Assembly (NCBI RefSeq): GCF_003858635.1
Contig: NZ_RQJO01000008.1
Span: 558,001 to 622,000 of the forward strand
Direction of reading: 5' to 3'
Source of the DNA: Larkinella rosea
GTDB lineage: Bacteria; Bacteroidota; Bacteroidia; Cytophagales; Spirosomataceae
Length of the DNA stretch: 64,000 nt
Shown here: piece by piece, positions 5,044-61,649 of the stretch
Numbering within the stretch: position 1 is the stretch's first letter
Layout of the letters: every line of letters starts with the position of its first letter
Position numbers and translations under genes: made by a program
The notes under the pieces: model-generated
What the model was told of the DNA's origin: nothing
The model's database searches: none
What the model saw: only the letters and a program-made list of their open reading frames with translations

Positions 5044-5092
5044 AGATGTGAGACAAGAGAATAAAGACTGAGTGGTCGCTTGTCTCACATCT
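5044..5092. repeat. Intergenic inverted repeat between nuoG and nuoH (word GAGACAAG)
   Basis: A 14-bp perfect inverted repeat: left arm 5044-5057, right arm 5079-5092, loop 21 bases. Related words (TGTCTC, CTCATGTCTC) continue to about 5108. The arms use the same GAGACAAG word as the larger repeat at 16528-16604. It lies inside an operon, between two subunit genes in the same direction, and has no T-run, so it is not an obvious terminator. It may act in mRNA processing or differential stability. Confidence 0.85.
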
Positions 5093-5116
5093 CACTTCTC
5101 ATGTCTCGATAAAAAT

Positions 5117-6268
5117 ATGAACCTGACAGAACTCATCATTAAAGGCATTCTGATCCTCGTACTCTTCGGAGTGACGTTGCTGATTGCCATGTATTCGACC
5201 TGGGCAGAACGGAAAGTAGCCGGTTTTATCCAGATTCGTTTCGGACCCAACCGGGCGGGACCGGGCGGTATTTTCCAGCCGCTGGCCGATGCCGGTAAAA
5301 TGTTTTTTAAAGAAGATTTTATTCCGTCACAGGCCAACAAGTGGCTTTTCATTCTGGGTCCGTGTCTGGCGATTCTGACGGCTTTGATGTCGAGCGCGGT
5401 GATTCCGTTTGGCGAAAGCATCCGGTACGAAGATCTGGTGATTCCTGTTCAGGGCATCGAAATCAACATCGGCATTCTGTACGTTTTCGGCGTTGTGTCG
5501 CTGGGCGTTTACGGGCTGATGGTGGGTGGCTGGGCGTCGAACAACAAATTCTCGCTGCTGGGGGCCATTCGGGCGGCTTCGCAGAACATCAGTTACGAAA
5601 TCGGGTTTGGTCTGTCGATCATCGCCATTCTGATGATGACGGGTTCGCTGTCGATTCGGGCGATTGTGGAACAGCAACACGGTTTTGCCTGGAATCTCTT
5701 CAATCAGCCGCTGGGCTTCATTATTTTCCTGACCTGCGCCTTTGCCGAGTGTAACCGGACACCGTTCGACTTGCCGGAGTGCGAAACCGAACTCGTGGGC
5801 GGTTACCACACCGAATACAGTTCCATGAAACTGGGCTTTTACCTGTTCGCCGAATACATCAACATGTTCGTGTCGTCGGCGATTATTTCATCGCTGTATT
5901 TTGGCGGGTATAATTACCCCGGTATGGACTGGGTGCGCGAAACCCTGACCGGTTCGCTGGGAGCGGCAACCGGCCACAACCTGACGACGCTCATCGGAAC
6001 GCTGGTGCTGTTTGGCAAGATTTTCTTTTTCATTTTCTTCTTCATGTGGGTTCGCTGGACGTTGCCGCGTTTCCGCTACGACCAGTTGATGAATCTGGGC
6101 TGGAAAACCTTCATCCCACTCTCGATATTGAATGTAGTCGTAACCGGTTTTGGCCTTTTATACGATGTAAAATACGCCAGTTGGGCCATTGTAATCGTAA
6201 TGGTCATTCTGGCGATGGTATCGTCGGCCCGCGCCCCGAAACCCGCCGTTCAACCGCAGCGAAGCTGA
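5117..6268 (+). CDS. nuoH: NADH-quinone oxidoreductase subunit H (membrane arm, quinone site)
   Basis: 383 residues from ATG 5117. An in-frame GTG at 5072 would add 15 residues read through the right arm of the intergenic repeat, so I reject it. About eight hydrophobic segments. The conserved loop is clear: AECNRTPFDLPECETELVGG, followed by the EYSSMKLGFYLFAEY block, typical of NuoH/ND1, which lines the quinone-binding entrance. TWAERKVAGFIQIRFGPNR near the N-terminus is also diagnostic. nuoI follows 15 bases later. Confidence 0.96.
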   Translation: MNLTELIIKGILILVLFGVTLLIAMYSTWAERKVAGFIQIRFGPNRAGPGGIFQPLADAGKMFFKEDFIPSQANKWLFILGPCLAILTALMSSAVIPFGESIRYEDLVIPVQGIEINIGILYVFGVVSLGVYGLMVGGWASNNKFSLLGAIRAASQNISYEIGFGLSIIAILMMTGSLSIRAIVEQQHGFAWNLFNQPLGFIIFLTCAFAECNRTPFDLPECETELVGGYHTEYSSMKLGFYLFAEYINMFVSSAIISSLYFGGYNYPGMDWVRETLTGSLGAATGHNLTTLIGTLVLFGKIFFFIFFFMWVRWTLPRFRYDQLMNLGWKTFIPLSILNVVVTGFGLLYDVKYASWAIVIVMVILAMVSSARAPKPAVQPQRS

Positions 6269-6283
6269 TAACGCACTGATCCT

Positions 6284-6847
6284 ATGCAATTAACCAATCG
6301 ATCTAAAGAGGTCAGTAACAAGCAGATGACGCTGGCGGAGAAGATGTATCTCCCGTCTATTGCGCAGGGGCTGGCCATTACGATAAAGCACTTTTTCGGC
6401 AAGAAAGTAACGATTCCGTATCCGGAAGTGAAGCGGTATCTGGGACCGGTTTTTCGCGGACATCACATTCTGAAACGCGACGAAGAAGGCCGGGAGCGTT
6501 GTACGGCCTGCGGGTTGTGCGCCGTAGCCTGTCCGGCCGAAGCCATTTCGATGGTTGCTGCCGAACGCAAAAAGGGCGAGGAAAACCTGTATCGCGAAGA
6601 GAAATACGCAGCGGTATACGAAATCAACATGCTACGGTGCATTTTCTGCGGGTTATGCGAAGAGGCTTGTCCGAAGCAGGCGGTTTATCTGCGGCACGAT
6701 AAGCTGGTGCCGATTTTTACCGAACGTGACCAGGTTGTGTATGGCAAGGAGGAACTGGTCGAAAAAATGACCGACCGGTATATTCGCACCAATCCTGACG
6801 CGCAGGCCACCCCGACCGAACCGTCGTTTTCGCGATCAGCCACGTAA
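6284..6847 (+). CDS. nuoI: NADH-quinone oxidoreductase subunit I (two [4Fe-4S] clusters)
   Basis: 187 residues. Two ferredoxin-type motifs are plain: C73-x2-C76-x2-C79-x3-C83 (CTACGLCAVACPAEAI) and C119-x2-C122-x2-C125-x3-C129 (CIFCGLCEEACPKQAV), the N6a/N6b clusters that hand electrons to NuoB and quinone. The short amphipathic N-terminus fits its attachment to the membrane arm. It starts 15 bases after nuoH; an inverted repeat separates it from nuoJ. Confidence 0.96.
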   Translation: MQLTNRSKEVSNKQMTLAEKMYLPSIAQGLAITIKHFFGKKVTIPYPEVKRYLGPVFRGHHILKRDEEGRERCTACGLCAVACPAEAISMVAAERKKGEENLYREEKYAAVYEINMLRCIFCGLCEEACPKQAVYLRHDKLVPIFTERDQVVYGKEELVEKMTDRYIRTNPDAQATPTEPSFSRSAT

Positions 6848-6858: not shown

Positions 6859-6909
6859 GGTTTGAGGTTTAACATGTAGGGCTTGCCGGATCACGTTAAA
6901 CTTCAAACC
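6859..6909. repeat. Intergenic inverted repeat between nuoI and nuoJ (word GGTTTGAGGTTTAAC)
   Basis: Left arm 6859-6873, right arm 6895-6909: 15 bp with one mismatch that can still form a G-U pair in RNA; loop 21 bases. A further TTTAAACG word follows at 6916-6923. Like the nuoG-nuoH repeat it sits inside the operon and lacks a T-run. Confidence 0.8.
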
Positions 6910-6930: not shown

Positions 6931-7449
6931 ATGAAGCCTACCGAAATACTTTTTTACGCCCTAACCGCCATCACCCTCCTGAGTGCATCGTTTGTGGTGA
7001 CGGCCCGAAACCCGATTCACAGCGTATTGGCGCTGATTATGACGTTTTTCTGCCTGTCGGGGCATTACATCTTGCTGAACGCCCAGTTTCTGGCGGCTGT
7101 CAACATCATTGTTTACGCCGGAGCCATCATGGTTTTGTTCCTGTTCGTGATCATGTTCCTGAACCTGAAAACCGATGATGAAGAATCGAAAACCACCATG
7201 ACCAAGCTTGCGGCTGTGGTCGTCGGTGGTGTATTGCTGGTCGTGATGGTCGCGGTGTTGCGGGTCGGAACGATGGCCACTTACAATCCGTCGTCGTACA
7301 GTGCGAAAGTGGGGTTGGTCGAAAATCTCGGTATCGTTTTATACAAAGATTATCTTTTACCGTTCGAGCTGGCGTCCATTCTGCTGTTGGTCGCTATGGT
7401 TGGGGCGGTGATGCTGGGCCGACGGGAACCCGGTGATCGGCATTATTAA
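6931..7449 (+). CDS. nuoJ: NADH-quinone oxidoreductase subunit J (membrane arm)
   Basis: 172 residues with about five hydrophobic helices. ALTAITLLSASFVVTARNPI and HSVLALIMTFFCLSGHYILL, then VNIIVYAGAIMVLFLFVIM, are typical of NuoJ/ND6, whose third helix carries the pi-bulge that helps couple quinone reduction to proton pumping. nuoK normally follows directly; here the next element is a terminator and an unrelated regulator gene, so the remaining membrane subunits must lie elsewhere. Confidence 0.94.
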   Translation: MKPTEILFYALTAITLLSASFVVTARNPIHSVLALIMTFFCLSGHYILLNAQFLAAVNIIVYAGAIMVLFLFVIMFLNLKTDDEESKTTMTKLAAVVVGGVLLVVMVAVLRVGTMATYNPSSYSAKVGLVENLGIVLYKDYLLPFELASILLLVAMVGAVMLGRREPGDRHY

Positions 7450-16503: not shown

Positions 16504-16527
16504 GATTTTGTTGAGAGGATAGAGATG

Positions 16528-16604
16528 AGACAAGAGACGTTAGACAAGAGAAAAAAACCGGAGACGGCGATCGTCTTTTTTCTCTTGTCTAACGTCTCTT
16601 GTCT
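16528..16604. repeat. Large perfect inverted repeat (words AGACAAGAG and GACGTTAG)
   Basis: Left arm 16528-16556 and right arm 16576-16604 are perfect reverse complements over 29 bp, with a 19-base loop that contains its own short dyad (GACG/CGTC). The right arm includes the stop codon (16589-16591) and last codons of the glycosyltransferase at 16589-17668. It shares the GAGACAAG word with the nuoG-nuoH repeat. It lies between two minus-strand glycosyltransferase genes. Confidence 0.95.
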
Positions 16605-17668
16605 AATTCCGTAATAATTCCGGCGAGTTTCTCGGCCGATTGCTGCCAGCTAAACCGTTCGACCCGGCTGCGGCCTTTCTCCACCAGGGTTTGGCGAAGT
16701 TTTTCGTCGCTATACAGTTTCTTCAGCCCGTCGCGGATGCTGCCGATGTTGTAGGGATCGACGTAAACGCTCGCATCGCCACAGACTTCGGGCAAACTTG
16801 TAGTGTCGGACACCAGCGTCGGGCAACCGCACGACATGGCTTCGAGGGGCGGAATGCCAAAGCCTTCAAAAAACGACGGATAAGCAAAAAAAAGCGCGTG
16901 CTGGTACAGATTGACCAGTTGCTCGTCGCTGAGGTAGCCGGTAAAAATGATAGAAGAATCGTTCTGAATCATTTCTTTCAGACCCGTATCGGCAAATACT
17001 TTATGGGCGGCTCCAACAATCACCAGCTTCGTATCCGGAAACTTCGCTTCCTGAAACGCCTGAATCAAGCCTTTGAAATTTTTACGCGGATCGAGCGACG
17101 AAACCGCCAGAATGTATTTTCCGTACGGGTTTTCGCCTTTCACCGCGGGCGGATACCGGAAAATATCCGAAATGCTGGGGTAGATAATGTCCAGCGACGA
17201 GCGGGGAATGTGGTAGCAGCGATGCAGGTCATTCAGGGAATATTCGCTGATGGTTAATACTTTATGGGCTGATTTGACGATTTTAGGGACCGTAAAGTTA
17301 TACAGCATCGAAAACTTCTTCGAGAACCATTCCGGGTGGAGGTGAAAGGATAAATCCAGCACGGTGACAATCTTGTTCCGGTAAAAGATCGGAGCGGTAT
17401 TACACAGATTCAGCAACAACGGACTTCCCTGACTGCGCAGATACGCGGGCATTTCAAGCTGTTCCCAGATGTATCCTTTGCTGCGGCCATAAACCGTGGC
17501 CCCCAACTCCTGCGCAATGTCCGGTTGTAAAATATTATGCGGGGTTAAAAACGTAATATCCGGCAACAACTCTTTTAATCGCATCCCGAGTTCAATGCCA
17601 ACCCGTTGCGTTCCGGTTATGGGTTGGGTCAGAAATCGGGCATTAACAACAACTGATTTATGGTTCAT
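16589..17668 (-). CDS. Glycosyltransferase family 4 protein (capsule cluster)
   Basis: 359 residues. GT-B fold with the GT4 signatures SLDPRKNFKGLIQAF in the donor domain, FTGYLSDEQLVNLYQHA and PSFFEGFGIPPLEAMSCGCP (conserved E-x7-E). TQPITGTQRVGIELGMRL at the N-terminus resembles mannosyl- or rhamnosyltransferases that extend polysaccharide repeat units. The last residues, DKRR and the stop, are encoded by the right arm of the adjoining inverted repeat, so the repeat apparently landed on, or trimmed, the end of this gene. Confidence 0.92.
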   Translation of the reverse strand: MNHKSVVVNARFLTQPITGTQRVGIELGMRLKELLPDITFLTPHNILQPDIAQELGATVYGRSKGYIWEQLEMPAYLRSQGSPLLLNLCNTAPIFYRNKIVTVLDLSFHLHPEWFSKKFSMLYNFTVPKIVKSAHKVLTISEYSLNDLHRCYHIPRSSLDIIYPSISDIFRYPPAVKGENPYGKYILAVSSLDPRKNFKGLIQAFQEAKFPDTKLVIVGAAHKVFADTGLKEMIQNDSSIIFTGYLSDEQLVNLYQHALFFAYPSFFEGFGIPPLEAMSCGCPTLVSDTTSLPEVCGDASVYVDPYNIGSIRDGLKKLYSDEKLRQTLVEKGRSRVERFSWQQSAEKLAGIITELDKRR

Positions 17669-22804: not shown

Positions 22805-22826
22805 AAAACGGTTTTTTGGTTTAACA

Positions 22827-22889
22827 TTTATCGTTTCTGGTTTCGGCTACAACGGCTGTTCGGGCTACTTATCAACCAGAGACGTTAAA
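22827..22889. repeat. Intergenic inverted repeat upstream of the methyltransferase gene
   Basis: Left arm 22827-22842, right arm 22874-22889, 14 of 16 pairs match, loop 31 bases. The words GGTTTAAC and GTTAAAC nearby recall the nuoI-nuoJ repeat. It lies between two minus-strand genes of the cluster. Confidence 0.65.
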
Positions 22890-22897
22890 CAATAAAC

Positions 22898-26494: not shown

Positions 26495-26512
26495 ACAAGT
26501 TCATCGGTTTAT

Positions 26513-26623
26513 GGTTTACGGTATTCGGTTTACGGTATTCGGTTTACGGTTTACGGTCGCTGACGCATTCATGAACGCGCTGGCAACTAAATACCGAATA
26601 CCGTAAACCGAATACCGTAAACC
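26513..26623. repeat. Large inverted repeat between wzz-like and gmd genes (words TTTACGG, TATTCGG)
   Basis: Arms 26513-26543 and 26593-26623 are perfect reverse complements over 31 bp; loop 49 bases. Within each arm, GGTTTACGG and GGTATTCGG alternate as tandem words, and further copies (26544-26556 and 26624-26630) extend it. It ends 5 bases before the stop codon of the wzz-like gene. The word set recurs in altered form at 56475-56539. Confidence 0.95.
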
Positions 26624-26634
26624 GTAAACCGCTT

Positions 26635-27744
26635 TTACGCCTGACGCCGGAATCTGCTCCAGACCGTTGTTAGTAGCGTCCAGCCCAAACCAGCCACCAC
26701 GCCAGCCGCCAGGGCAGCAAAAATAAACAGGGTACGCCGGGGGCCGTTCGGCCGGAGTGGTATTCTCGGCGGTTCCAGCATCTTAAAAACCGGTGTTTCC
26801 TCCTGGACCCGGATTTTGGCCTGCTCCAGTTGCCGGGATAAGTCATTGTAAACGTTTTGGGCCAACAGAAATTCGGCCTGAAGCCGCTGTTCGCTGATGC
26901 GGGCCAGGCCGCTGTATAAACTCCGGTTGCGGTCGCGGTAACTTTCCAGTTCCAGCTCAGCCGCCTGATACCGACGCCGGGATTGTTCGACCTGCTGAAT
27001 CAAAAACCGCTCCTGATTCCGGACTTTCTGCGTCCGGTAGCTGGTGATGTAATTTGTCAGGTATTCGAGCGACAAGCGGGCGACCGTAGCGGCCACGACG
27101 GGATCGGGCATGCGGGCTTCGATGGTTACAATACCAGTTCGCCGTTCGTAGGTGGTTGTAATCCGGTTCGTTAAAGTAGCCGCCAGCCCTTCCTGTTCGG
27201 GCGAAATCTGTAAGGCTTTGCTGTAATTTTTGGGATCCGAGAGGTTGTCGGGCGCGGGTTGGGGGTTAACGGGCGCGTTGTCGGTATTGCCAGTCAGTCG
27301 TTGAAAAGCCGTTTCCTGCCTCTGTCGTTGCAGATACGCCTGCAGCGGGAGTACGGTTTTATAGTTTTTGGAATAAACCGGCTGCTTCAGCATATGTAAG
27401 GCAAACGGAATACTCTGCAACACATCGGGGTATAAATCGGGCCGAATGACGTCACTGGCCGCGTTGTCGATGCTGAGGCCCGCCAGACCCGCCAGCGATC
27501 CCAGATTGCCCATGCCGGGAGCACTGCCCGCCGAGGCTTCCGGCATGACGGTCACTTCCGCCTTGTAGTCGTCCGGTTTCGAAAAGGCGTAGTAAACACC
27601 AATCAGGGTGCCCAGTACGGCAAAAACCAGCACGGCCCGCAGGCTGCGCTGGATAAATTTCAGGATGTCGCCCGGTCGGATCTGGATCAGATCATCGTCG
27701 TCCATTTCGGAACCGATTGAGGGATTTTTCGTTGGTAGTGACAT
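26635..27744 (-). CDS. Wzz-type polysaccharide chain-length / co-polymerase protein
   Basis: 369 residues. A first membrane helix near 37-55, a large periplasmic part with a coiled-coil-like region (about 235-310), and a second helix near 342-362. KPDDYKAEVTVMPEASAG after helix 1 is the Wzz signature, and a P-rich segment precedes helix 2. It controls chain length with the polymerase. No tyrosine-kinase (Wzc) domain follows helix 2, and no separate kinase gene is seen. Confidence 0.87.
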   Translation of the reverse strand: MSLPTKNPSIGSEMDDDDLIQIRPGDILKFIQRSLRAVLVFAVLGTLIGVYYAFSKPDDYKAEVTVMPEASAGSAPGMGNLGSLAGLAGLSIDNAASDVIRPDLYPDVLQSIPFALHMLKQPVYSKNYKTVLPLQAYLQRQRQETAFQRLTGNTDNAPVNPQPAPDNLSDPKNYSKALQISPEQEGLAATLTNRITTTYERRTGIVTIEARMPDPVVAATVARLSLEYLTNYITSYRTQKVRNQERFLIQQVEQSRRRYQAAELELESYRDRNRSLYSGLARISEQRLQAEFLLAQNVYNDLSRQLEQAKIRVQEETPVFKMLEPPRIPLRPNGPRRTLFIFAALAAGVVAGLGWTLLTTVWSRFRRQA

Positions 27745-32189: not shown

Positions 32190-32196
32190 TAGTAAA

Positions 32197-32247
32197 GATG
32201 GTTGGATGGTTCAATGGCTGAGTGGTTGTTTTAACCATCAATCCATC
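32197..32247. repeat. Inverted repeat between dedA and the ABC-F gene (word GATGGTTGGATGG)
   Basis: Arms 32197-32211 and 32233-32247 pair at 13 of 15 positions, loop 21 bases. Words such as GATGGTT and ATCAATCC recur. It lies between two minus-strand genes. It is weaker than the other repeats of the window but similar in build. Confidence 0.65.
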
Positions 32248-37404: not shown

Positions 37405-37420
37405 TTAGTGTCTTGAACTT

Positions 37421-37549
37421 GGATTACGCAGATTTAAGGATTAACAGGATTTGCTACCGCAATCTTTTATATCCTGTTAATCCTTAAATCTGCGTAATCC
37501 CGGTTCAGACCTCCTCGTTAATCTTTGAATCTGCGTAATCCGGGTTCAA
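37421..37549. repeat. Inverted repeat with three copies of a GGATTACGCAGATTTAAGG word
   Basis: Arms 37421-37450 and 37471-37500 are perfect reverse complements over 30 bp, loop 20 bases. A third, diverged copy of the right arm lies at 37517-37549 and pairs with the extended left arm 37411-37445. The third copy is inside the reading frame of the MscS-type gene and encodes its last residues. I recall similar ATCCTTAAATCTGCGTAATCC-type words as common intergenic repeats in other Bacteroidota; this should be checked. Confidence 0.95.
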
Positions 37550-38635
37550 GACGCTTAACCGGGTTTTAGGTAGACTTTCGGGATACTCATCCCGCAGAAA
37601 GGCAATAATATTTTCCCGAATAAAACACCGCAGATCGAAGCTTTCCGGGGCGTTGCGCGAGGAAGTTAAAATGCGAATGACCACGCAATTCGGCTGCGTA
37701 TCCGTCACCTGGACCACGCAGACTTCTTTATCCCAAAGCGGATTATTTTCCACCAGTTCTTTCGATTTCTCCCGAATCCGGTCAACCGGCACGTTGTAAT
37801 CCAGATACAGCATCACCGTGCCCAACACCGAGGCATTCGACCGGGTCCAGTTCTGGAACGGTTTTTCGATGAAATACGTGATAGGCAGAATCAGTCGGCG
37901 TCGATCCCACACCCGCACCACCACATTGGTCAGGTTAATTTCCTCAATCCGGCCCCACTCGCTTTCCACCACCACGGCATCATCGACGCGGATTTGCTGC
38001 GTAAACGCAATCTGAATCCCCGCCAGCAGGTTGGCAATCGTACGCTGAGCTGCAAAACCGATGACCACCGATGCGATCCCGGCCGAGGTCAGAAAGCTCA
38101 AACCGATTTTACGCCCGCCGTTAAACGACAGCAATAAAACCGAAAAGCCCACAACGATGACCATAATCGAAACGAGTTGCCGGACAAAGACAATCTGGGT
38201 AACGAACTTTCGCAGGTGCAGATTGACATCGTTGGTCGTGTCATACCGCCGAATAATGAGCCGTTCCAGGACTTTCAGTGCCTGCACCACCAGCCAGGTC
38301 GTAGCAATGGTAAAAGCTACCTCGGCGGCTTTCGACGCGTACGGAAACCGCTGAAACGAGCGCTCCTGAATGTTGGTGATGATCAGAAAAAACAGCGAAG
38401 GAACGAAGAAATAAAACGCCGTTCGGACGTAATGGCGCAACAATTCGAGCACCTGAACGTGCCGTCGGCGGAGAACCATGCGGACGATTTGTGCCACGAT
38501 CATGTTGACCAACAGCCCAGCGGCCACGGCCACGGCCAACAGCAACCAGCCGGAAATTTTTCGATTGTGTCGCAGCCAGCGGTCAATTTCGGTGCCAATC
38601 TGGCTGAAATTGTCCCAAAAGTCCGTCCAGTTCAT
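37505..38635 (-). CDS. Mechanosensitive ion channel, MscS family
   Basis: 376 residues. Hydrophobic helices near 28-50, 70-90, 105-125 and 145-175, then the pore helix and beta domain with VIGFAAQRTIANLLAGIQIA, VESEWGRIEEINLTNVVVRV and RRRLILPITYFIEKPFQNWT. The channel opens on osmotic down-shock. The last 14 residues (LNPDYADSKINEEV) are encoded by a copy of the adjoining inverted repeat, so the natural C-terminus has been replaced or extended. Confidence 0.92.
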   Translation of the reverse strand: MNWTDFWDNFSQIGTEIDRWLRHNRKISGWLLLAVAVAAGLLVNMIVAQIVRMVLRRRHVQVLELLRHYVRTAFYFFVPSLFFLIITNIQERSFQRFPYASKAAEVAFTIATTWLVVQALKVLERLIIRRYDTTNDVNLHLRKFVTQIVFVRQLVSIMVIVVGFSVLLLSFNGGRKIGLSFLTSAGIASVVIGFAAQRTIANLLAGIQIAFTQQIRVDDAVVVESEWGRIEEINLTNVVVRVWDRRRLILPITYFIEKPFQNWTRSNASVLGTVMLYLDYNVPVDRIREKSKELVENNPLWDKEVCVVQVTDTQPNCVVIRILTSSRNAPESFDLRCFIRENIIAFLRDEYPESLPKTRLSVLNPDYADSKINEEV

Positions 38636-39826: not shown

Positions 39827-39945
39827 TAATAGCCCACGGTTTTAATCGTGGGCTTGGGAGTAAAATAGGGGATTAAAAACCGTTAAAACGGTTGGAATAT
39901 ACTCGCTCGTTTTCGTATTCCCACGGTTCAAACCGTGGGCTATTA
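39827..39945. repeat. Compound inverted repeat (word AGCCCACGGTTT)
   Basis: Outer arms 39827-39842 and 39930-39945 are perfect over 16 bp. Each also forms its own local hairpin: AGCCCACG/CGTGGGCT at 39831-39854 and CCCACGGTT/AACCGTGGG at 39920-39939. The right arm carries the stop codon of the small frame at 39943-40083. The word also recalls common ACCCACGG-type repeats of Bacteroidota. Confidence 0.9.
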
Positions 39946-40087: not shown

Positions 40088-41536
40088 TTACGCCAAAACC
40101 GGTTTTACCACTTTTCCGTGCACGTCCGTCAGGCGATATCGCCGACCCTGGTGTTTGAATACCAGTTTTTCGTGATCGACGCCCATCAGGTGCAGAATCG
40201 TGGCCTGAAAGTCGTGAACATGAACGGGATCTTTCAGGACGTTGTACCCAAACTCGTCGGTTTCGCCGTACACCATCGCTTTTTTGACGCCCGCACCCGC
40301 CATCCAGACCGTAAAGCAACGGGGATGGTGATCGCGACCGTAGTTTTCTTTCGACAGTTTTCCCTGCGAATAATTGGTCCGACCAAACTCGCCACCCCAG
40401 ATTACCAGCGTATCGTCGAGCAAACCGCGTTGTTTCAAATCCATGATCAAAGCGGCCGAAGGTTGATCGACGCTCTTCGTTTGAATCTTGATGTCGTTGG
40501 GTAAATTGCCGTGCTGATCCCAGCCCTGGTGGTATAACTGCACAAACTTGACATCTTTCTCGATCAGTTTTCGAGCCAGCAGACAATTGGCGGCAAATGT
40601 CCCCGGCTGACGGGAGTCGGGGCCGTACATATCAAAAATATAATCCGGTTCTTTCGAAATATCGAGCGTTTCGGGCACCGACGCCTGCATCCGGTACGCC
40701 ATCTCATACTGCGCCATCCGGTTATTGATTTCCGGGTCCAGCACTTGTTTAAATTGCTCCTGATGCAGTTTGCCGAGGTAATCGAGCATCCGCCGACGGC
40801 TGGGCTTGTCGATGCCCGGCGGGTTGTTCAGGTAATAAACCGGGTCGGGGCCGGACCGAAAAACCACACCCTGATGAACCGACGGCAGAAAACCGTTGCT
40901 CCACAATTTGGCATACAACGGCTGATCGCCATTGCGGCCTTTCGAAAGCAGGACGACAAAAGCCGGTAAATTCTGATTATCAGAACCTAAGCCGTAGCTT
41001 GCCCAGGAGCCAAACGAAGGACGTCCGGCCTGCTGCGAACCGGTCTGGAAGAACGTCACCGCTGGGTCATGGTTAATGGCTTCGGTATTCATTGACCGGA
41101 TGAAACATAAATCATCCGTAATCCGCGAGGTATAGGGCAGCAACTCGCTGACCCACATCTGGCTATTGCCGTGCTTAGCGAACTTGAATTTGGAAGCCGC
41201 CAGCGGAAATTTGCTTTGTCCGGCGGTCATGCCCGTCAGGCGCTGGCCTTTCCGAACTGACTCGGGCAACTCCTGCCCCCACATCGTTTCCAGTTTTGGT
41301 TTGTAATCGAACAAATCCAACTGCGAGGGCGCACCGCTCTGGAACAGGTAGATGACCCGCTTCACTTTGGGCGAGAAGTGCGGTTTTCCCGGCGGGCGGT
41401 TTTCTTCGCTACCCGCTACCAATTTTGTTGGATTGAGCAACGACGCGAGGGCAATGGCACCCAAACCAGCACTGGTTTTGCCCAGAAAGGTCCGGCGGCT
41501 CAACTGATCGTGTAATTCGTCTTCCAGATGGTTCAT
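40088..41536 (-). CDS. DUF1501 family protein, Tat-exported (first module)
   Basis: 482 residues. Tat signal SRRTFLGKTSAGLGAIAL (14-31) followed by the DUF1501 domain: KRVIYLFQSGAPSQLDLFDY, NHDPAVTFFQTGSQQAGRPS, LYHQGWDQHGNLP and WGGEFGRTNYSQGKLSKENY. DUF1501 has an alkaline-phosphatase/sulfatase-like fold; catalytic activity has not been firmly shown. It is the usual partner of PSD1/planctomycete-cytochrome proteins in Planctomycetes, Verrucomicrobia and Bacteroidota. The PSD1 gene lies directly upstream, and a second pair is at 58355-63110. Confidence 0.92.
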   Translation of the reverse strand: MNHLEDELHDQLSRRTFLGKTSAGLGAIALASLLNPTKLVAGSEENRPPGKPHFSPKVKRVIYLFQSGAPSQLDLFDYKPKLETMWGQELPESVRKGQRLTGMTAGQSKFPLAASKFKFAKHGNSQMWVSELLPYTSRITDDLCFIRSMNTEAINHDPAVTFFQTGSQQAGRPSFGSWASYGLGSDNQNLPAFVVLLSKGRNGDQPLYAKLWSNGFLPSVHQGVVFRSGPDPVYYLNNPPGIDKPSRRRMLDYLGKLHQEQFKQVLDPEINNRMAQYEMAYRMQASVPETLDISKEPDYIFDMYGPDSRQPGTFAANCLLARKLIEKDVKFVQLYHQGWDQHGNLPNDIKIQTKSVDQPSAALIMDLKQRGLLDDTLVIWGGEFGRTNYSQGKLSKENYGRDHHPRCFTVWMAGAGVKKAMVYGETDEFGYNVLKDPVHVHDFQATILHLMGVDHEKLVFKHQGRRYRLTDVHGKVVKPVLA

Positions 41537-41549
41537 AGCCTTCTCATTT

Positions 41550-41617
41550 TCCCTGATAACCTCTGATGTTCTCTGATTAACCCTGTGTAATAACTACAAA
41601 TCAGAGGTTATCAGGGA
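41550..41617. repeat. Inverted repeat between PSD1 and DUF1501 genes (word CCTGATAACCTCTGAT)
   Basis: Arms 41550-41567 and 41600-41617 are perfect over 18 bp, loop 32 bases. CTCTGAT-type words repeat tandemly inside and around (41568-41585, 41618-41636). It lies between two co-directional genes of the first module. Confidence 0.9.
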
Positions 41618-41638
41618 ACATCAGAAGTTATCGGAGTT

Positions 41639-44600
41639 TTATCGTTTGATAATCGCTTCGTCAACGTTCATAATCGTGCTGGTAACCACCGTCCAGGCCG
41701 CTAGTTCGGAGGCTGGAATGGCTTTATCAACCGGAAATTCACCCACACTCAGCAGTTCAGTAGCCCGCTTGGGATTGTTTTTGAAATCCGCCAGTTCCTC
41801 CGCATACAGTTGCTTCATCAACGTCACCTCCGCCGGACGAACCGGGCGACTGGTGACGGATTTAAAGACGTAACCGATCAGGGCGTCATCCTTGAGCCCC
41901 ATGCCCAAAGCCCGCTGCCCCAACACCCGGGCGGCTTCCACAAACTGCGGATCGTTCAGCGTCACCAAAGCCTGCAAGGGTGTCGATGTTTTCTGTCGTT
42001 TGACGATGCAGGTGTGCCGTTCGGATGCATCGAAATTGAGCATCATCGGCGGGGGCGACGACCGTTTCCAGATCGTATACAAACTCCGGCGGTACAGACT
42101 ATCACCGTGGCTTTGTTCGTAATTGATGGCATTCCGGGTGGCCAACGCTTCCCAAATACCGGATGGCTGGTAAGGCAGCACACTCGAACCGCCAATTTTC
42201 TGCGACAGTAAACCGCTGGCTGCCAGAACATTGTCGCGAACCTGCTCGGCCGACATCCGGTAGCTGGGCCCGCGCGAAAGCAGAGAGTTATCCAGATCGG
42301 CTTCCAGTTTTTTAGCATCGGCTACGGAAGACTGACGATAGGTTGCCGACATCACAATCATTTTTTGCAAGGCTTTGGCATTCCAGATTCCGGATCGTTC
42401 GGTGCCATCCCGGAAACGAACGGCAAGATAATCCAGCAGTTCCGGATGGGAAGGAAGATTCCCCTGATTCCCGAAATCGTCGCTGGTTTTCACCAATCCC
42501 TGACCGAAATACTGCTGCCAAAACCGGTTGACCATCACCCGGCTGAACAGCGAATTGTCAGGATTGAGCAGCCACATCGCCAGTCCCAGGCGGTTTTTCG
42601 GGTATTCTTCCGGGAATGGCATCAACTGGCCGGGCGTTGCGGGCGTCACTTCCTCGCCGTGTGCATCGTAAGCGCCCCGTTTCAGCAGGTATGTTTTCCG
42701 GGGATATTTTCGCTCTTTCATCACCATCACCTGATCGGAATTGTTGTAGAGCATCAATTCCTCCGCCCGGTCGGCCTGAAATTCTTCAAAGGCTTTCCGA
42801 TACGTCGAATCCTGAGCGATAACGTAATACGAGTACAAACCGGCCCGTTGCGCTGCCGTCCGTTTGGCCGAAGGCGTAGACAGGGCCGCCGTCAACGCAT
42901 CCGCTTGGCCCGCCAGAACGGGAATTTCGAGCGGAGTCAGGCTGCGGTTATAAATCCGCAGTTCGTCAATCGCGTAATCCTTGATGTAGTGATCGTGTAT
43001 CCGGCCAATCAGGAACGGCGAACCAGACCAGTTCTTGCCATTTTTACCCCGATCGATGCTGTGAACGAGGTGGTCGGTAACAATTTCAAGCTTAGTCGGT
43101 TGGCCATTTAAATACAGCTTGATACCAGCCGCCCGACCCGATCCGTCGTAGGTCATCGTCAGATGAAACCATTGTTTATAGCGGATTTTGGCGACGGTTT
43201 CCACGTCGAGGCTATTGTCTGGCCAGACGTGATTCATCGTGATTTTAAAACGACCGTCTTCCAGCAAACCAATCTCATACCCCCGGTTTCCGTCAAAAGG
43301 TCCGTTCGATTTGCCCATCAGCATGCCTTCCAGACCCGGTTTGGCCACATTGAACCACGCACTGACCGTAAACGGCTGGTTCTGTTCATAAAAACCGACT
43401 TTCCGGGGCAGTTCGATGTTGCTGTCGCCTTTCAGGTACCGTGCCATGCCGACTTTGCCCTTGATCTGGTACGGGAAACTTTCAGGATCTCCGGCCAGAC
43501 GCGCGGGCAGCGTGTCGTTCACCTGATTCCAGAAGGCATTGCGGGGGTCCTTTTCGAGTTCTTCGCGGGTTTTCGGAACCGCCGGTTTTTTCACTTCGGG
43601 CAAGCCCAGCTTCTTCCGTCGTTCTTCCTCTTTCTTCTTGAGTTCGTCTTCTTTTTTCCGTTCGGCATCTTTCAATTTCTTTTCCTCCGAATTTTCGTAG
43701 GCTTTAAAATCCCGCCGATCGGCTTCATCGAAGGTGTAATGCGCTACCAGACCCACATTGATCGAAGACGCCGGATTTCGTTCGGCCTGACTCAGCCACG
43801 GCCCGAATGCTCGTTGATATTCCGGGCGGTTCGGGTTTAAGCGTTGCTGTACCGGTTTGATTTTCTGATGAATAAATTTCAGTTTGGCCGCTACATCTAA
43901 CGACGTGAGCGTAATTGTCGGGGCGGGTTCGCCGTTGTACGGGATTTGACCACGCTCGTTGTTGTTGTTGAAAAACGCAAACAGCGAATAGTAATCTTTC
44001 TGGCTGATCGGGTCGTATTTGTGGTCGTGGCAGCGGGCGCACTCCACGGTCAGGCCCAGCATTGCTTTCCCAAACGTATTGACGCGGTCGGCAACGTATT
44101 CGACCCGGTATTCTTCATCGACAATCCCGCCTTCCTGACTCTGCTGGTGATTTCGGTTGAATGCCGTCGCCAGCAGCATGTTTTGGGTCGGATTAGGAAG
44201 CATATCGCCCGCCAGTTGCCAGCTAATGAACTTATCGAACCGCAGGTTTTTGTTAAACGCCGTGATGACCCAATTGCGGTACGGCCACATCGTGCGCAAA
44301 CCGTCGTCCTGATACCCGTGCGTATCGGCATACCGGGCCGCATCGAGCCACTCGACGGCTTGCCGCTCGCCATAATGCGGACTGCTGAATAACCGGTTGA
44401 CTACTTTCTCGTACGCATTCGGACTGGTGTCGGCCAGAAAAGCATCCACTTCAGCCACTGTCGGCGGCAAACCAGTCAAGTCCAGCGTAACCCGACGCAA
44501 CAAAGTAGCTTTATCGGCTTCCGGATTAGGTGTCAGACCTTTGTCTTCAAGTTTTTTGAGAACAAAATTGTCGATCTCGTTTTTGACCCACTTCTCGTTC

Positions 44601-45100
44601 TTAACCTTCGGAACGTCTGCCAACTGGGGTGTAATCAGCGACCAGTGCGGTTTGTATTCAGCGCCCTGCTCAATCCAGCGAACCAGCAGTGCTTTTTCTT
44701 CCGTCGTCAGAATCAGATTGGATTCCGGCGTGGGCATCCGGTATTCCGGATCGTCGGAAATGATGCGGTGATAGGCTTCACTTTTCGCCAGATTGCCGGG
44801 GACGATAGCGGTTTTCCCACTTTTCGATAAGGCTTCGTAGGCACTTTCGGCAATATCGAGCCGTAAACCGGCTTTTTGCTTGGCTTTATCCGGGCCGTGG
44901 CAGGCAAAACAGCGATCCGACAAGATCGGTTTGATATGCAGGTTGTAATCGACTTTTTCGGGTAATTTGCTTTCTAAAGCGACCAATTCTGCCGGTTTTT
45001 CAACGCTATTGCCACAGGAACTCCAGACGGTCACCGAAAACAGGGCGATGGCCGAGCTGAAAAGCAGCGATTGGAATCGTATGTCGGATAAATGACACAT
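41639..45100 (-). CDS. PSD1/planctomycete cytochrome-c domain lipoprotein with LamG (first module)
   Basis: 1153 residues. Lipoprotein-type signal ending near C29 (WSSC). Heme-binding CFACH (64-68) in the PSCyt1 domain, then a DUF1549 region (about 155-370), a LamG/concanavalin-like region (about 455-735) and a DUF1553 region (about 820-1090). The LamG region carries an insert of about 85 residues (about 460-545) rich in K and E (EEKKLKDAERKKEDELKKKE) that the paralog lacks. The function is unknown; such proteins are tied to oxidative handling of polysaccharides in marine and soil bacteria. Upstream of its DUF1501 partner. Confidence 0.9.
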   Translation of the reverse strand: MCHLSDIRFQSLLFSSAIALFSVTVWSSCGNSVEKPAELVALESKLPEKVDYNLHIKPILSDRCFACHGPDKAKQKAGLRLDIAESAYEALSKSGKTAIVPGNLAKSEAYHRIISDDPEYRMPTPESNLILTTEEKALLVRWIEQGAEYKPHWSLITPQLADVPKVKNEKWVKNEIDNFVLKKLEDKGLTPNPEADKATLLRRVTLDLTGLPPTVAEVDAFLADTSPNAYEKVVNRLFSSPHYGERQAVEWLDAARYADTHGYQDDGLRTMWPYRNWVITAFNKNLRFDKFISWQLAGDMLPNPTQNMLLATAFNRNHQQSQEGGIVDEEYRVEYVADRVNTFGKAMLGLTVECARCHDHKYDPISQKDYYSLFAFFNNNNERGQIPYNGEPAPTITLTSLDVAAKLKFIHQKIKPVQQRLNPNRPEYQRAFGPWLSQAERNPASSINVGLVAHYTFDEADRRDFKAYENSEEKKLKDAERKKEDELKKKEEERRKKLGLPEVKKPAVPKTREELEKDPRNAFWNQVNDTLPARLAGDPESFPYQIKGKVGMARYLKGDSNIELPRKVGFYEQNQPFTVSAWFNVAKPGLEGMLMGKSNGPFDGNRGYEIGLLEDGRFKITMNHVWPDNSLDVETVAKIRYKQWFHLTMTYDGSGRAAGIKLYLNGQPTKLEIVTDHLVHSIDRGKNGKNWSGSPFLIGRIHDHYIKDYAIDELRIYNRSLTPLEIPVLAGQADALTAALSTPSAKRTAAQRAGLYSYYVIAQDSTYRKAFEEFQADRAEELMLYNNSDQVMVMKERKYPRKTYLLKRGAYDAHGEEVTPATPGQLMPFPEEYPKNRLGLAMWLLNPDNSLFSRVMVNRFWQQYFGQGLVKTSDDFGNQGNLPSHPELLDYLAVRFRDGTERSGIWNAKALQKMIVMSATYRQSSVADAKKLEADLDNSLLSRGPSYRMSAEQVRDNVLAASGLLSQKIGGSSVLPYQPSGIWEALATRNAINYEQSHGDSLYRRSLYTIWKRSSPPPMMLNFDASERHTCIVKRQKTSTPLQALVTLNDPQFVEAARVLGQRALGMGLKDDALIGYVFKSVTSRPVRPAEVTLMKQLYAEELADFKNNPKRATELLSVGEFPVDKAIPASELAAWTVVTSTIMNVDEAIIKR

Positions 45101-56454: not shown

Positions 56455-56474
56455 GTATTCGGTGTATGGTTTTT

Positions 56475-56539
56475 CGTATACGGTTTTCGGATACAGGCGT
56501 GTACTAATGAATGCGTCAGCCTACCATAAACCGTATACG
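56475..56539. repeat. Inverted repeat between susC and susD genes (word CGTATACGGTTT)
   Basis: Core arms CGTATACGGTTT at 56475-56486 and its reverse complement at 56528-56539 match over 12 bp; flanking TTTT/CGG words extend them imperfectly. The right arm and what follows were open as an upstream extension of the susD frame. Word set akin to the repeat at 26513-26623. Confidence 0.75.
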
Positions 56540-56588
56540 GAAAATCGTAAACCCAGCTTTCAAGTATTCAAAAAACGATTTCACAGGA

Positions 56589-58145: not shown

Positions 58146-58354
58146 AAGGGGGTAAATTCTTGTATTGTAATGAAATAGTACAAACTGGTAAGCCTTCGCT
58201 TTACGTAGAAACAGTAAAATAGGAAAGTGTTTGCAATCGTTTAAAGTAAAGCGAGGGTTTGCTGGAAAGTTGCTAAATTTAGGGGAAAGTCAGTATTATA
58301 AGTGGAGTGAAAAGTTTGTTTCGTACAGCGTCGATGGTAAGCATAAAGCATAGA

Positions 58355-61300
58355 ATGACGAGCCGAATGGGGGTGTTGATGATTGGGTTGGCAAGTCTGC
58401 TGATTCAGAGTTGTGGGGTGGACAAACCGGCCGAAATTGAGCAGCTGGCGGACCAGCTTCCGGATGAGGTGGATTACAACCTGCACGTGAAGCCGATTCT
58501 GTCGGACAAATGCTTTTTCTGTCACGGTCCCGACAAGGCCAGTCAGAAAGGCGGTTTGGAACTGGCGACCCGCGAAGGCGCGATGGCGGCTTTGAAAAAA
58601 GCGAAAAACAAAAAACACGCCATCGTTCCCGGCGATCTGGCCGAAAGTGAGGTCTATTACCGGCTGGTGACGAAGGACGAGGACGAGATGATGCCGCCCA
58701 AATCGTCGAACCGGGTGCTGACAAATTACGAAAAAGCCGTCCTGCTGAAATGGATTGAACAGGGAGCGGAATACAAACCGCACTGGGCGCTGATCAAACC
58801 GGAAAAACCGGAGCTGCCGAAGGTGAAAGACACACGCTGGCCCAAAAATCCGATCGACTATTTTGTATTGGCTAAAATGGAGGAAAAAGGGCTGAAACCC
58901 GCCCCCGAAGCCGATAAAGAAAACCTGTTGCGCCGGGTAACGCTGGATCTGACCGGTTTACCACCGACGGTGGCCGAAGAAGACGCTTTCCTGGCCGACC
59001 ATTCGCCAAATGCGTACGAAAAAGTAGTAGACCGCCTGTTGAAATCGCCCCATTATGGCGAGAAAATGGCAATCGACTGGCTGGATGTGTCGCGGTATGC
59101 CGACACGCATGGCTACACCGTCGACCGCTACCGCCCGATGTGGCCCTGGCGCGACTGGGTCATTCAGTCGTTCAATAAAAATCAGCCCTTTAATCAGTTC
59201 ATTACCTGGCAATTGGCGGGCGATCTGTTGCCCAAAGCCAATCGCGAGCAACGGCTGGCGACGGCCTTTAACCGCAACCATTCCCAGAACATGGAAGGCG
59301 GTATTATCAACGAAGAGTTTCGGGTGGAATACGTCGCCGACCGCGCCAATACCGTCGGTACGGCGTTGATGGGCCTGACGATGGAGTGTGCGCGGTGCCA
59401 CGACCACAAGTTCGACCCGATTTCGCAGAAAGATTACTACAGTTTGTTCGCGTTTTTCAATAACGTCGACGAAGCCGGTCAAATTTCCTGGGACGATGCG
59501 ATGCCGGTGCCAACGATGTTGCTGACTCAGCCGAAACACGACAGCCTGCTGACGTTTCTGGATACGAAAATAAAGGCGGCTGAAAGCGCGATCAATCAAA
59601 CCGTTCAGGCGGAACAACCGGCTTTTGTCAACTGGCAAAAAACCGCCACCGCCATTCCGTTCGATTACCGGAAAGGATTGCAGGCCCATTTTACGTTCGA
59701 TAAACTGGTAAACGGCAAGTTCCTGAACGAAGTCAGTAAAAAAGATACTGGCAAAGTACTCGACCCGGTTTTGGTGCCGGGCAAACGCGGAAATGCGTTC
59801 CAGTCCAATGGCGACGATATTCTGACGCTGGGTCAGGTTGGTATTTTCAATCGCTCGCAGCCGTTTACGGTGGGCGTGTGGGTCAATATTCCCAAAGACG
59901 TTTCCAAAGCCGCGCTTGTCCACAAGGGCAATGGTGACATTCTGTACAATTTCCGGGGCTATTTCCTGAACCTGCGCGACGGCAAAGCGGAATTGCTGAT
60001 GGCGCACACCTGGCCGTACAACGCCATTATCCGGCTCAGCAATCAGGTATTGCCGAAAGAAAAATGGATTCAGCTGACGATGACCTACGACGGTTCGAGC
60101 AAAGCCAACGGCCTGCGGTTATTCGTCGATGGGCGGGAAGCCGCGATGACGACCGAAAAGGATAATTTGTACAAAGACATTCTGTTCCGGGGGAAACAAA
60201 CCGGTTTGATGGTCGGCGCCGATATGCGCGGACCGGGTTTTAAAAAAGGATCGGTAGACGATCTGGTGGTTTACAACCGGGCGTTGACTGCGCCGGAAGT
60301 ATTCGCGCTGGCGCAATCCGGGCAGCAATTGAACGCTGCCAACGGCGATGCGCTGAAGAATTATTACCTCCATGCGGTTTCAACGGCGTATCAGCAACGG
60401 CGGGATACGTTGCAGAAACTCCGGGCGGAACGAAACCGGGTGGCCGAGGAAATTCCGGAAATCATGGTGATGGAAGACATGAAGAAGCCCCGGCCGACTT
60501 TTATTCTGAAGCGGGGGGGTTACGACGCGCCCGGCGATCCCGTTCGCCCCGATGTGCCGGCGAGTGTGTTGCCATTTCCAAAGGAATACCCCAGAAACCG
60601 CCTGGGTCTGGCGCAATGGCTGCTGCACCCCGATAATCCGCTGACGGCGCGGGTGACCGTAAACCGCTACTGGCAAACCTATTTCGGAACCGGGCTGGTA
60701 AAATCCGCCAATAATTTCGGCAATCAGGGCAATTTGCCGACGCACCCCGAACTGCTCGACTGGCTGGCCGTTCAGTTTCGGGAGGGGGCCGGAGGGGCGT
60801 CACCCTGGAATGTAAAAGCCATGCAGAAGCTGCTGGTGATGTCGGCGACGTACCGGCAATCGTCGCGCGGAACCCCGGAATTGCTGCAAAAGGACCCGGA
60901 AAATACGTGGCTGGCCCGTGGCCCGATGTTCCGGCTGACGGCGGAAATGATTCGGGATAATGCGCTGGCGTCGAGCGGCTTGTTGTCGACGCGTTTGGGT
61001 GGTGAAAGTGTAAAACCGTACCAGCCGGAAGGATTGTGGACCGTCAACAGCGCGACGTATGACCAGGCAACCGGTGAGGGTTTATACCGCCGGAGTTTGT
61101 ACACATTCTGGCGCCGGACCAATCCACCCCCATCGATGAACACCTTCGATGCGCCGTCGCGGAGTTATTGCGTGGTGCAGCGACAGAAAACCAGCACGCC
61201 TTTGCAAGCGCTGATTTTGCTCAATGATCCGCAGTTTGTCGAAGCCGCCAAGGTAGTGGCTGCCCGCTCGTTTACCGGAAATAAACCGTTACCAGAACAA

Positions 61301-61543
61301 CTGACGCAGGTATTCCGGTTATTGACGAGTCGCAAACCGACGAACAAGGAGCTGGCTATTTTGACGAAATTGTACCAGCAGGAATACCAGAAATTCCGGA
61401 AAACTCCCGCCAAAATGGAGGGCTGGATTCAGGCCGGTGAATACAAATTGACGCAAGCAAGTGCCGAGATGCCCGCCCTAGCGGCCGGTGCGGTCGTTGC
61501 CAGTACGGTGATGAATTCGGAAGCGTTTATTACAAAGCATTAG
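58355..61543 (+). CDS. PSD1/planctomycete cytochrome-c domain lipoprotein with LamG (second module)
   Basis: 1062 residues from ATG 58355 (MTSRMGVLMIGLASLLIQSC, lipobox LIQSC); GTG 58307 and other ATGs upstream are possible. Heme motif CFFCH at 53-57; DUF1549, LamG-like and DUF1553 regions in the order seen in the copy at 41639-45100. The LamG insert rich in K/E is missing here. It probably belongs to the SusCD locus that precedes it, in the same direction, 209 bases away. Function unknown. Confidence 0.9.
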   Translation: MTSRMGVLMIGLASLLIQSCGVDKPAEIEQLADQLPDEVDYNLHVKPILSDKCFFCHGPDKASQKGGLELATREGAMAALKKAKNKKHAIVPGDLAESEVYYRLVTKDEDEMMPPKSSNRVLTNYEKAVLLKWIEQGAEYKPHWALIKPEKPELPKVKDTRWPKNPIDYFVLAKMEEKGLKPAPEADKENLLRRVTLDLTGLPPTVAEEDAFLADHSPNAYEKVVDRLLKSPHYGEKMAIDWLDVSRYADTHGYTVDRYRPMWPWRDWVIQSFNKNQPFNQFITWQLAGDLLPKANREQRLATAFNRNHSQNMEGGIINEEFRVEYVADRANTVGTALMGLTMECARCHDHKFDPISQKDYYSLFAFFNNVDEAGQISWDDAMPVPTMLLTQPKHDSLLTFLDTKIKAAESAINQTVQAEQPAFVNWQKTATAIPFDYRKGLQAHFTFDKLVNGKFLNEVSKKDTGKVLDPVLVPGKRGNAFQSNGDDILTLGQVGIFNRSQPFTVGVWVNIPKDVSKAALVHKGNGDILYNFRGYFLNLRDGKAELLMAHTWPYNAIIRLSNQVLPKEKWIQLTMTYDGSSKANGLRLFVDGREAAMTTEKDNLYKDILFRGKQTGLMVGADMRGPGFKKGSVDDLVVYNRALTAPEVFALAQSGQQLNAANGDALKNYYLHAVSTAYQQRRDTLQKLRAERNRVAEEIPEIMVMEDMKKPRPTFILKRGGYDAPGDPVRPDVPASVLPFPKEYPRNRLGLAQWLLHPDNPLTARVTVNRYWQTYFGTGLVKSANNFGNQGNLPTHPELLDWLAVQFREGAGGASPWNVKAMQKLLVMSATYRQSSRGTPELLQKDPENTWLARGPMFRLTAEMIRDNALASSGLLSTRLGGESVKPYQPEGLWTVNSATYDQATGEGLYRRSLYTFWRRTNPPPSMNTFDAPSRSYCVVQRQKTSTPLQALILLNDPQFVEAAKVVAARSFTGNKPLPEQLTQVFRLLTSRKPTNKELAILTKLYQQEYQKFRKTPAKMEGWIQAGEYKLTQASAEMPALAAGAVVASTVMNSEAFITKH

Positions 61544-61544
61544 A

Positions 61545-61649
61545 ACGTACCCACGGACTAAAGTCCGTGAGACCTTGAATACTAGTTAGAATCTGGAATT
61601 ATTACATCTCACGGACTAAACGGGGCCGCCCGGCGGGCCGTGGGTACGT
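61545..61649. repeat. Compound inverted repeat between second PSD1 and DUF1501 genes
   Basis: Outer arms 61545-61556 and 61638-61649 match over 12 bp (ACGTACCCACGG). Inside is CACGGACT/AGTCCGTG at 61552-61569, a third copy of the CACGGACT word at 61610-61617, and a GC-rich stem near 61624-61639. It occupies the same position as the repeat 41550-41617 in the first module, but is of different sequence. Confidence 0.85.

Follow-up and report, generated by a model that had tools for sequence, protein, structure and literature searches.

The 64,000-nucleotide stretch analysed here (the window; positions 558,001 to 622,000 of contig NZ_RQJO01000008.1 of Larkinella rosea) contains a class of long intergenic inverted repeats, in which two arms, many of them built of short words repeated in tandem, face each other across a loop. 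Our results indicate that these tandem-word hairpins are a real, multi-family and dispersed class, that they are often retained at orthologous junctions of same-genus genomes while their arms change, and that the two arms change jointly above the expectation for independent arms, although not everywhere, and changes confined to one arm are more frequent. It is probably not pairing in RNA that is maintained, and the hairpins behave as DNA palindromes. We lean towards the reading that they are dispersed DNA palindromes of about 50-140 bp, tolerated behind genes, whose arms are homogenised mutually at the DNA level. The strongest new points are the rewriting of arms at fixed junctions (concerted at many sites), a negative wobble test with a working control, and a word family that crosses domains. 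The source genome (G000) comprises 8.17 Mb in 18 contigs, and the window (G000:C11:558001-622000) has a GC content of 51.6% and carries, among others, nuoH, SusC/SusD-type and DUF1549/DUF1501 genes.

A scan for gapless arms at a threshold of 12 points, with dinucleotide-preserving shuffles as controls, recovered 63 inverted repeats in 400 kb around the window, compared with 4, 0, 4, 4 and 6 in five shuffles. Sixty of the 63 were intergenic, corresponding to 1.16 per kb of intergenic and 0.009 per kb of coding sequence. The class described in an earlier note on this DNA thus exists: random sequence does not give as many, and the repeats are not confined to one part of the genome, being present on a second G000 contig as well. 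Regions of nine same-genus genomes (1.6 Mb in total) held 248 intergenic and 19 coding repeats, against 14, 10 and 13 repeats in three shuffle replicates. An orientation was assigned to 244 of the 248, of which 176 lay between co-directional, 57 between convergent and 11 between divergent genes; per kb of gap, the densities were 3.20 (convergent), 1.35 (co-directional) and 0.27 (divergent). Within co-directional gaps, the median distance was 14 nt to the upstream stop and 58 nt to the next start, the start distances being approximate because genes were called with a home-made codon-score caller that trims starts. The repeats are therefore lodged in the 3' flanks of genes and seldom lie between divergent ones. 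Loops of at most 8 nt were found in 61 of the 244 repeats, ordinary terminators among them, and the class under study is that with longer loops.

The eleven sites of the window are listed below without strand, each with the z score of its minimum free energy (MFE) against 200 shuffles.

5044-5092: tandem-word hairpin with GAGAC/AAGAGA words, in the gap before nuoH (PF00146); z -4.1
6859-6909: tandem-word hairpin with GTTTA/GGTTT words, between a 4Fe-4S gene (6284-6847) and an open reading frame (ORF; 6931-7449); z -4.2
16525-16607: tandem-word hairpin with AGACAAGAGACGTTAGACAAGAGA arms that separates two glycosyltransferase genes and overlaps with gene 16589-17668 at its 3' end; z -8.2
22819-22897: weak imperfect hairpin; z -2.6
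26505-26631: tandem-word hairpin with GGTTTACGGTATTCGG words, 39-bp arms and an inner TGACGC-type core; z -12.6
32196-32259: weak ATGGTT-word hairpin; z -1.9
37414-37555: hairpin GGATTACGCAGATTTAAGGATTAACAGGAT between convergent genes, with the word GGATTAACAGG common to distant phyla and a third, partial arm copy at 37517-37555 inside the 3' end of ORF 37505-38635; z -13.3
39827-39945: REPIN-like element with CCCACGGTTT-type arms, such palindromes flanking Y1_Tnp genes in relatives; z -9.0
41540-41627: tandem-word hairpin with CTCTGAT words, between DUF1549-type and DUF1501 genes; z -8.6
56461-56553: tandem-word hairpin of the GTTTACGG family, between SusC-type and SusD genes; z -5.7
61545-61649: REPIN-like element GTACCCACGGACTAAAGTCCGTG, of which 61621-61637 is a GC-rich palindromic block; z -5.5

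Eight of the eleven places passed the gapless threshold (5044, 16528, 26505, 37421, 39827, 41540, 56470 and 61545), and 6859 fell narrowly under it, with 15-bp arms, one mismatch and a score of 11. Nine folded more stably than all 200 shuffles, the exceptions being 22827 and 32197, which are weak in G000 (2 and 8 of 200 shuffles equally stable, respectively). The dimensions proposed earlier, arms of 12-31 bp and loops of 20-100 nt, need adjusting, as arms reach 39 bp and loops span 15-81 nt in the window. Likewise, the placement between co-directional genes holds for most repeats, as the count from the nine genomes shows, but not for site 37421, whose neighbours converge; the scarcity of T-runs was borne out, a run of five or more T occurring at 13 of the 176 co-directional repeats. 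A chance origin of the repeats was rejected on the shuffle counts, the folds and the sharing of words.

Fifty-seven junctions were comparable in at least three genomes of the genus. Identity at fourfold-degenerate sites was 0.48-0.64 between G000 and its relatives and 0.80-0.85 within G002, G005 and G007 (25 of 49 common genes), so that independently changing arms should have lost much of their pairing. The junction at 6847 (labelled nuoI-nuoJ) holds GTTTA/GTTTG-type hairpins, each re-paired, in G000, G008, G002, G003 and G001, gaps of 9-10 nt in G004, G005 and G007, and an unrelated hairpin in G006. Between shared flanks at 41536, CTCTGAT, GCGGAG or CTGTCAGCGG hairpins were found, those of G007 and G003 being imperfect or mixed, and the junction at 61543 is of the GTACCCACGG type in G000, of the GTTTACGG type in G008 and G004, and empty in G003 and G001. 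Filled and empty orthologous junctions thus both exist, and divergence obscures the exact ends. In addition, G008 holds a strong hairpin in a longer gap at the junction of 22819-22897, and the junction at 32196-32259 carries GAATGA-type words in the seven compared relatives, with a gapless hairpin in six of them.

For a chimaera test, 11 junctions were picked by the G000 hairpin alone, one of which (junction 64) resembles a conserved terminator. The 72 comparisons with relatives comprised 57 foldable junctions, 13 without a spacer and 2 that were too long; z was below -3 in 43 of the 57, and left/right chimaeras folded more weakly on average than the natural pairs in 36 of these 43. At 13 chosen junctions, the frequency with which a base change in one arm had its match in the partner arm was 0.345 within a genome (n = 1845), compared with 0.196 across genomes (n = 9056). 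When changed columns were counted for five genome pairs at up to nine junctions, the ratios of both-arm to one-arm changes were 8:26, 19:103, 14:64, 34:84 and 4:40, alignments of reshuffled words being uncertain; for the G000/G008 pair (34 vs 84), about 2 both-arm changes would be expected by our arithmetic if the arms were independent.

Whether pairing is kept in the transcript or in the DNA can be read from the mismatches, as a selected transcript fold should tolerate G.U on the sense strand but not A.C. Across 159 co-directional hairpins, sense-strand mismatches comprised 48 G.U and 72 A.C, and the corresponding counts were 20:13 in 47 convergent and 4:4 in 14 divergent hairpins. The positive control, 137 terminator-like stems from the same genomes with both mismatches scored alike, gave 88:13, which indicates that the test has power. 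For G000 alone the counts were 15:25 (51 hairpins), and those of a laxer scan were 78:96 (166 hairpins). Since sense-strand G.U does not exceed A.C, unlike in terminator-like stems, pairing in RNA is probably not kept.

Paralogous junctions were consulted as well. Of 87 SusD-like matches, 30 yielded loci and 29 a SusC-SusD junction, and in 19 of these junctions the gap was at most 32 nt; two of the 29 passed as hairpins, and two more (L291 and L301) have word arms by eye. The eight DUF1501 junctions include three with gaps of 4, 5 and 20 nt, two that pass as hairpins (L277 and L279, both sites of the window), and three further ones that hold words or palindromes by eye. At both the SusC-SusD and the DUF1549-DUF1501 junctions, the elements are sporadic and of different families, which looks like sporadic lodging and not like an operon-specific device. 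Two paralogous DUF1549/DUF1501 pairs lie in the window itself (40088-45100 and 58307-63110), with junction hairpins of different families.

In the reading that we favour, arms homogenised at the DNA level, the arms would be held complementary by template switching between them during replication, slippage of short words would reshape them, and a copy may occasionally be replaced by another from its own or a sister family. The bias towards 3' flanks would arise mostly because purifying selection removes copies from genes and promoters, RAYT transposition probably accounts for the REPIN-like minority (39827, perhaps 61545), and an effect on mRNA ends, if any, would likely be a side effect. This copying mechanism is what we infer, and the spread of the tandem-word majority lies outside it. 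Several observations weigh against the reading. The stronger chimaera was weaker than both natural folds in 19 of the 57 foldable comparisons, 14 of the 57 relatives' junctions were not at z < -3, and 13 more lacked the spacer. Own-arm matching varies by site, from 0.08 (16503) and 0.09 (5033) to 0.62-0.67 (-19488 and 37404), with several sites near or below the control, and the pattern at the GAGAC sites 5044 and 16528 resembles ordinary decay. All five pairs show more one-arm than both-arm changes, and the column counts relied on hairpins detected by their pairing, a selection in favour of paired columns. No individual template-switch event was traced on a tree, and the three junctions aligned showed no clean insertion with a target duplication; family swaps with the flanks kept, as at 41536 and 61543, could be conversion or re-insertion. 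In addition, the wobble test pools related copies, and its outcome is compatible with selection on DNA structure or protein binding.

The word content of the arms was examined in 89 long-loop sites from two 400-kb samples of G000. An arm 10-mer was common to another site in 46 of the 89, compared with 4-12 for shuffled arms and 2 of 89 matched intergenic control segments, and 10-mers common to at least three hairpins reached 61.6 per kb in hairpins, against 0.42 in coding sequence, 1.12 in other intergenic sequence and 0.32 in shuffled sequence. The earlier idea that each site is made from its own short words is thus contradicted, as words recur among sites and species and, for one family, among phyla; tandem repetition of words within arms was significant in 23 of 67 arms of at least 16 bp, and so is a property of many arms but not of all. 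About 14 recurrent word sets were judged by eye, and the word lists fit 34 of 50 long-loop hairpins in the first sample and 21 of 39 on the second contig, the lists being drawn mainly from the first sample and orthologous junctions and their false-positive rate unmeasured. Listed copies of the GCGGAG family have common termini by eye, with TTTCGCGGAG-type ends. The 5' arm contains more G than C in 97 of 135 co-directional hairpins (31 opposite) and 27 of 40 convergent ones (10 opposite), a descriptive figure given that copies are related. These hairpins come from the nine regions and the second G000 sample, and the G-richness of the 5' arm toward the loop is a polarity independent of transcription. 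Hairpins of the GTTTACGG type (26505-26631, G000 C11:633207 and 655223, and L316-L319) share an inner GGCTGACGC...GCGTCAGCC-like core, which also accompanies a few further arm words. The idea that a TGACGC...GCGTCA core is the mobile unit in every family was rejected, as only 10 of 257 hairpins pass, one of which, a GCGGAG element, matches by chance.

One family appears to be local. Hairpin patterns of GGTTTACGG matched 2 of 296 genomes of the phylum and 5 of 61 of the same family, and this word family looks restricted accordingly in distribution, as far as pattern matches can tell; the matches to the pattern AACTCCGC-gap-GCGGAGTT were mostly unrelated, the pattern being poorly chosen. Among other Bacteroidota, 17 of twenty stretches had sufficient length: four from G257, of the same family, held 1-5 long-loop intergenic repeats each (three of the four were picked around GGTTTACGG-pattern matches), five were present in L325, of the same order, and 0-2 in each of the remaining twelve. 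A TGTCATCCTGAGCC hairpin was observed in another Bacteroidota genome (L324).

By contrast with the GGTTTACGG family, the hairpin GGATTAACAGG-gap-CCTGTTAATCC was found in at least 119 stretches, where our arithmetic predicts about one or less, and 80 loci were listed. Among the matches listed, roughly ten phyla, archaea included, were counted by record title, with titles naming strains of Thioalkalivibrio, Thiobaca, Geothrix and Siphonobacter and metagenome-assembled genomes of Chloroflexota, Verrucomicrobia, Brocadiaceae, Neomarinimicrobiota, Calditrichia and Methanoperedens, the latter titles possibly being wrong. Several copies per genome occur among these matches, e.g., in Thiobaca trueperi. 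At the 80 loci listed, GACA precedes the left word in 43, TGTC follows the right word in 40, and both are present in 26; several other loci have a further copy of the word in place of GACA/TGTC. Of the 73 loci in which genes could be called, 58 could be placed: 37 in co-directional gaps, 17 in convergent, 4 in divergent and none in coding sequence, with 15 at edges. As gaps of at least 20 nt at the same loci number 207 co-directional, 61 convergent and 41 divergent, the avoidance of divergent gaps is weak in this family. Plasmids of Spirosoma oryzicola carry hairpins of this kind, and one stretch in a viral contig collection has a GGATTAACAGG hairpin. Plasmid searches with 41540-41627, 61530-61670, 26500-26635 and 37405-37560 as queries gave no match at the E-value limits, and neither did a phage search with 37405-37560 (site 37421). 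A hairpin type starting TTTTTGTCAT(C/G)C(C/T)GACG was also noted on the Spirosoma oryzicola plasmids (L365 28386-28471 and L366 35818-35893).

The Y1_Tnp profile gave 28 matches in all nine genus genomes, RAYT and IS200 types not being sorted. Palindromes of the CCCACGGTTT type, the repeat of site 39827, flank 4 of 20 genus Y1_Tnp loci (L264, L269, L270 and L271), and the remaining loci are flanked by other palindromes; on this sequence likeness, site 39827 is classed as REPIN-like. Tandem-word families were seen among the inverted repeats of none of the 20 loci (of the 28 matches). In the GGATTAACAGG-family genomes searched, 7 of 11 have a Y1_Tnp match and 4 do not, and words occur at one of 30 Y1_Tnp loci from such genomes. 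At this locus, L336 (1320-2018; from the genome of L126, titled Thiobaca trueperi), the loop of a GGATTAACAGG hairpin contains an IS200-like gene that has CCCCCGGCT palindromes of its own; L336 was rejected as a transposase bounded by words, as the nested arrangement lends that no support. Arms are self-palindromic by eye at 39827 and 61545 and are not so in the GAGAC, GTTTACGG, CTCTGAT, GCGGAG and GGATTA arms. RAYT mobilisation of the tandem-word families was thus rejected (0 of 20 genus loci, one nested case in 30 elsewhere), and no transposase link was found for these families in a search limited to Y1 transposases.

Different explanations of the hairpins can be weighed against these results. 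That they are selected RNA elements, i.e., intercistronic or 3'-end hairpins for mRNA stability, processing or differential operon expression, appears unlikely: they follow stop codons closely (in co-directional gaps at a median of 14 nt), fold strongly and keep their pairing at many junctions across the genus, but sense-strand G.U is not in excess (48 vs 72, against 88:13 in terminator-like stems), the same operon types are usually without hairpins (the SusC-SusD gap is at most 32 nt in 19 of 29), and the spacer is missing in relatives in 13 of 72 comparisons. The earlier note had offered mRNA end formation and differential operon expression as roles; as keepers of the hairpins, both are disfavoured by the negative wobble test and by the sporadic, different families at paralogous junctions. 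Its view that these are not terminators stands, with few T-runs and no G.U excess. Intrinsic terminators of an unusual form would suit the 3' location, and their bidirectional symmetry the convergent gaps (3.20 per kb), but they are very unlikely given the T-runs at 13 of 176 co-directional repeats, the missing RNA-pairing footprint (48:72 vs 88:13) and the coexistence of 137 T-tailed terminator-like stems. Words of the DNA-uptake type paired in inverted orientation are known to make hairpin families elsewhere (PMC2267715, as far as its account goes); such an origin is extremely improbable here, where many words occur instead of one and shared 10-mers are concentrated in hairpins (61.6 per kb, against 0.42 in coding, 1.12 in other intergenic and 0.32 in shuffled sequence).

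The remaining alternatives concern how the hairpins spread. RAYT-mobilised REPINs throughout would fit the presence of Y1_Tnp in 9 of 9 genus genomes (28 matches, unsorted as to RAYT or IS200) and the CCCACGGTTT-type palindromes at 4 of 20 loci that resemble site 39827, and the REPIN-like role suggested earlier is indeed retained for that site. As an account of all hairpins, however, it is improbable, since tandem-word families are absent from the 20 genus loci, 4 of 11 GGATTAACAGG-family genomes have no Y1_Tnp match, the words at 1 of 30 other loci belong to the nested IS200-like case with its own palindromes, and by eye the arms of word families are not self-palindromic. A different, unrecognised mobile system, of the kind of miniature inverted-repeat transposable elements (MITEs) and served by another transposase or a reverse transcriptase, may tentatively be considered for the spread of the tandem-word families, across phyla too. 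It would explain the common termini within families (GACA in 43 and TGTC in 40 of 80, both in 26; TTTCGCGGAG-type ends), the multiple copies per genome, e.g., in Thiobaca trueperi, and the hairpins on Spirosoma oryzicola plasmids. Against it, no partner gene was found in a search limited to Y1_Tnp, target duplication was not seen at the three junctions aligned, and the viral collection yielded one stretch only, phages being without a match to site 37421. It is rather doubtful that the hairpins are selfish or neutral tandem-word palindromes that cross domains with no dedicated transposase, being built, re-perfected and re-worded by replication through slippage and template switching primed by the hairpins, with GACAGGATTAACAGG-like families crossing phyla and domains; new word families would then arise in place from old ones, e.g., CAGAG and CGGAG words on one scaffold.

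Homogenised DNA palindromes, the reading preferred here, share features with several known systems, compared below as far as the cited descriptions extend. The nearest element families are REPINs (PMC3116915) and tagged REPs/TIRYTs (PMC3733652). Like REPIN/REP elements and their RAYTs (PMC3116915, PMC3733652), the hairpins are short, intergenic and present in many copies as inverted pairs, and site 39827 resembles a palindrome that flanks genus Y1_Tnp genes; compensatory changes have been reported in REPIN stems too (PMC3116915, PMC3733652). Tandem-word hairpins are unlike REPINs in that their arms are not self-palindromic by eye, whole words distinguish the copies of a family, a linkage to Y1_Tnp was not found, and rewriting affects the arms and not the spacer alone. 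MITE/TIRYT families (PMC3733652) similarly have long terminal inverted repeats around a short centre, but here a transposase with matching ends was not found among the Y1_Tnp loci examined, and target duplications were not seen. Template switching creates and mends hairpins (PMC8794818), for which multi-base changes mirrored in the other arm and re-perfected stems are predicted, as in our junctions; the hairpins of that study are RNA genes, whereas those described here are without an RNA-pairing footprint and belong to dispersed families. The TAACTGA heptamers of Beggiatoaceae, Cyanobacteria and some Bacteroidetes (PMC4679880) are likewise short intergenic words, patchy across phyla and with no evident vector, but they are direct repeats mostly just upstream of start codons and not inverted arms behind genes (PMC4679880). 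Bacterial stem-loop families (PMC2267715) are also dispersed, the structured ones mostly intergenic; that survey covered 40 genomes, and its main text has no words beginning Bacteroid, Porphyromonas or Cytophaga.

In the open-access full-text literature, no description of these word hairpins was recognised, mostly judging by titles and the starts of abstracts, and literature matches to the exact words were unrelated on the same grounds. The hairpins are a real variant of dispersed palindromic repeats that was not found described in the open-access literature searched. Covarying stems are routinely taken as proof of a functional RNA, yet in the large natural set described here many sites have covarying arms though the sense-strand wobble speaks against RNA pairing. 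If arms are indeed copied at the DNA level, covariation alone can mislead RNA discovery, and the repeats would constitute a natural laboratory for template-switch mutation in bacteria. In addition, the recurrence of one word hairpin across roughly ten phyla, among them archaea, for which our searches turned up no vector, raises the question of how tiny non-coding DNAs travel.

Two minor observations concern individual sites. A short GC-rich palindromic block, CGGGGCCGCCCGGCGG, lies within or beside several word hairpins (window 61621-61637, G000 C11 at about 660796 and 736132, and regions of G005 and G001) and resembles a smaller inserted repeat. The nuoH ORF is listed from 5072, and its matches in G001, G003 and G004 cross one stop, which fits a listed start lying inside the hairpin at 5044; the true start of nuoH is probably near 5117.

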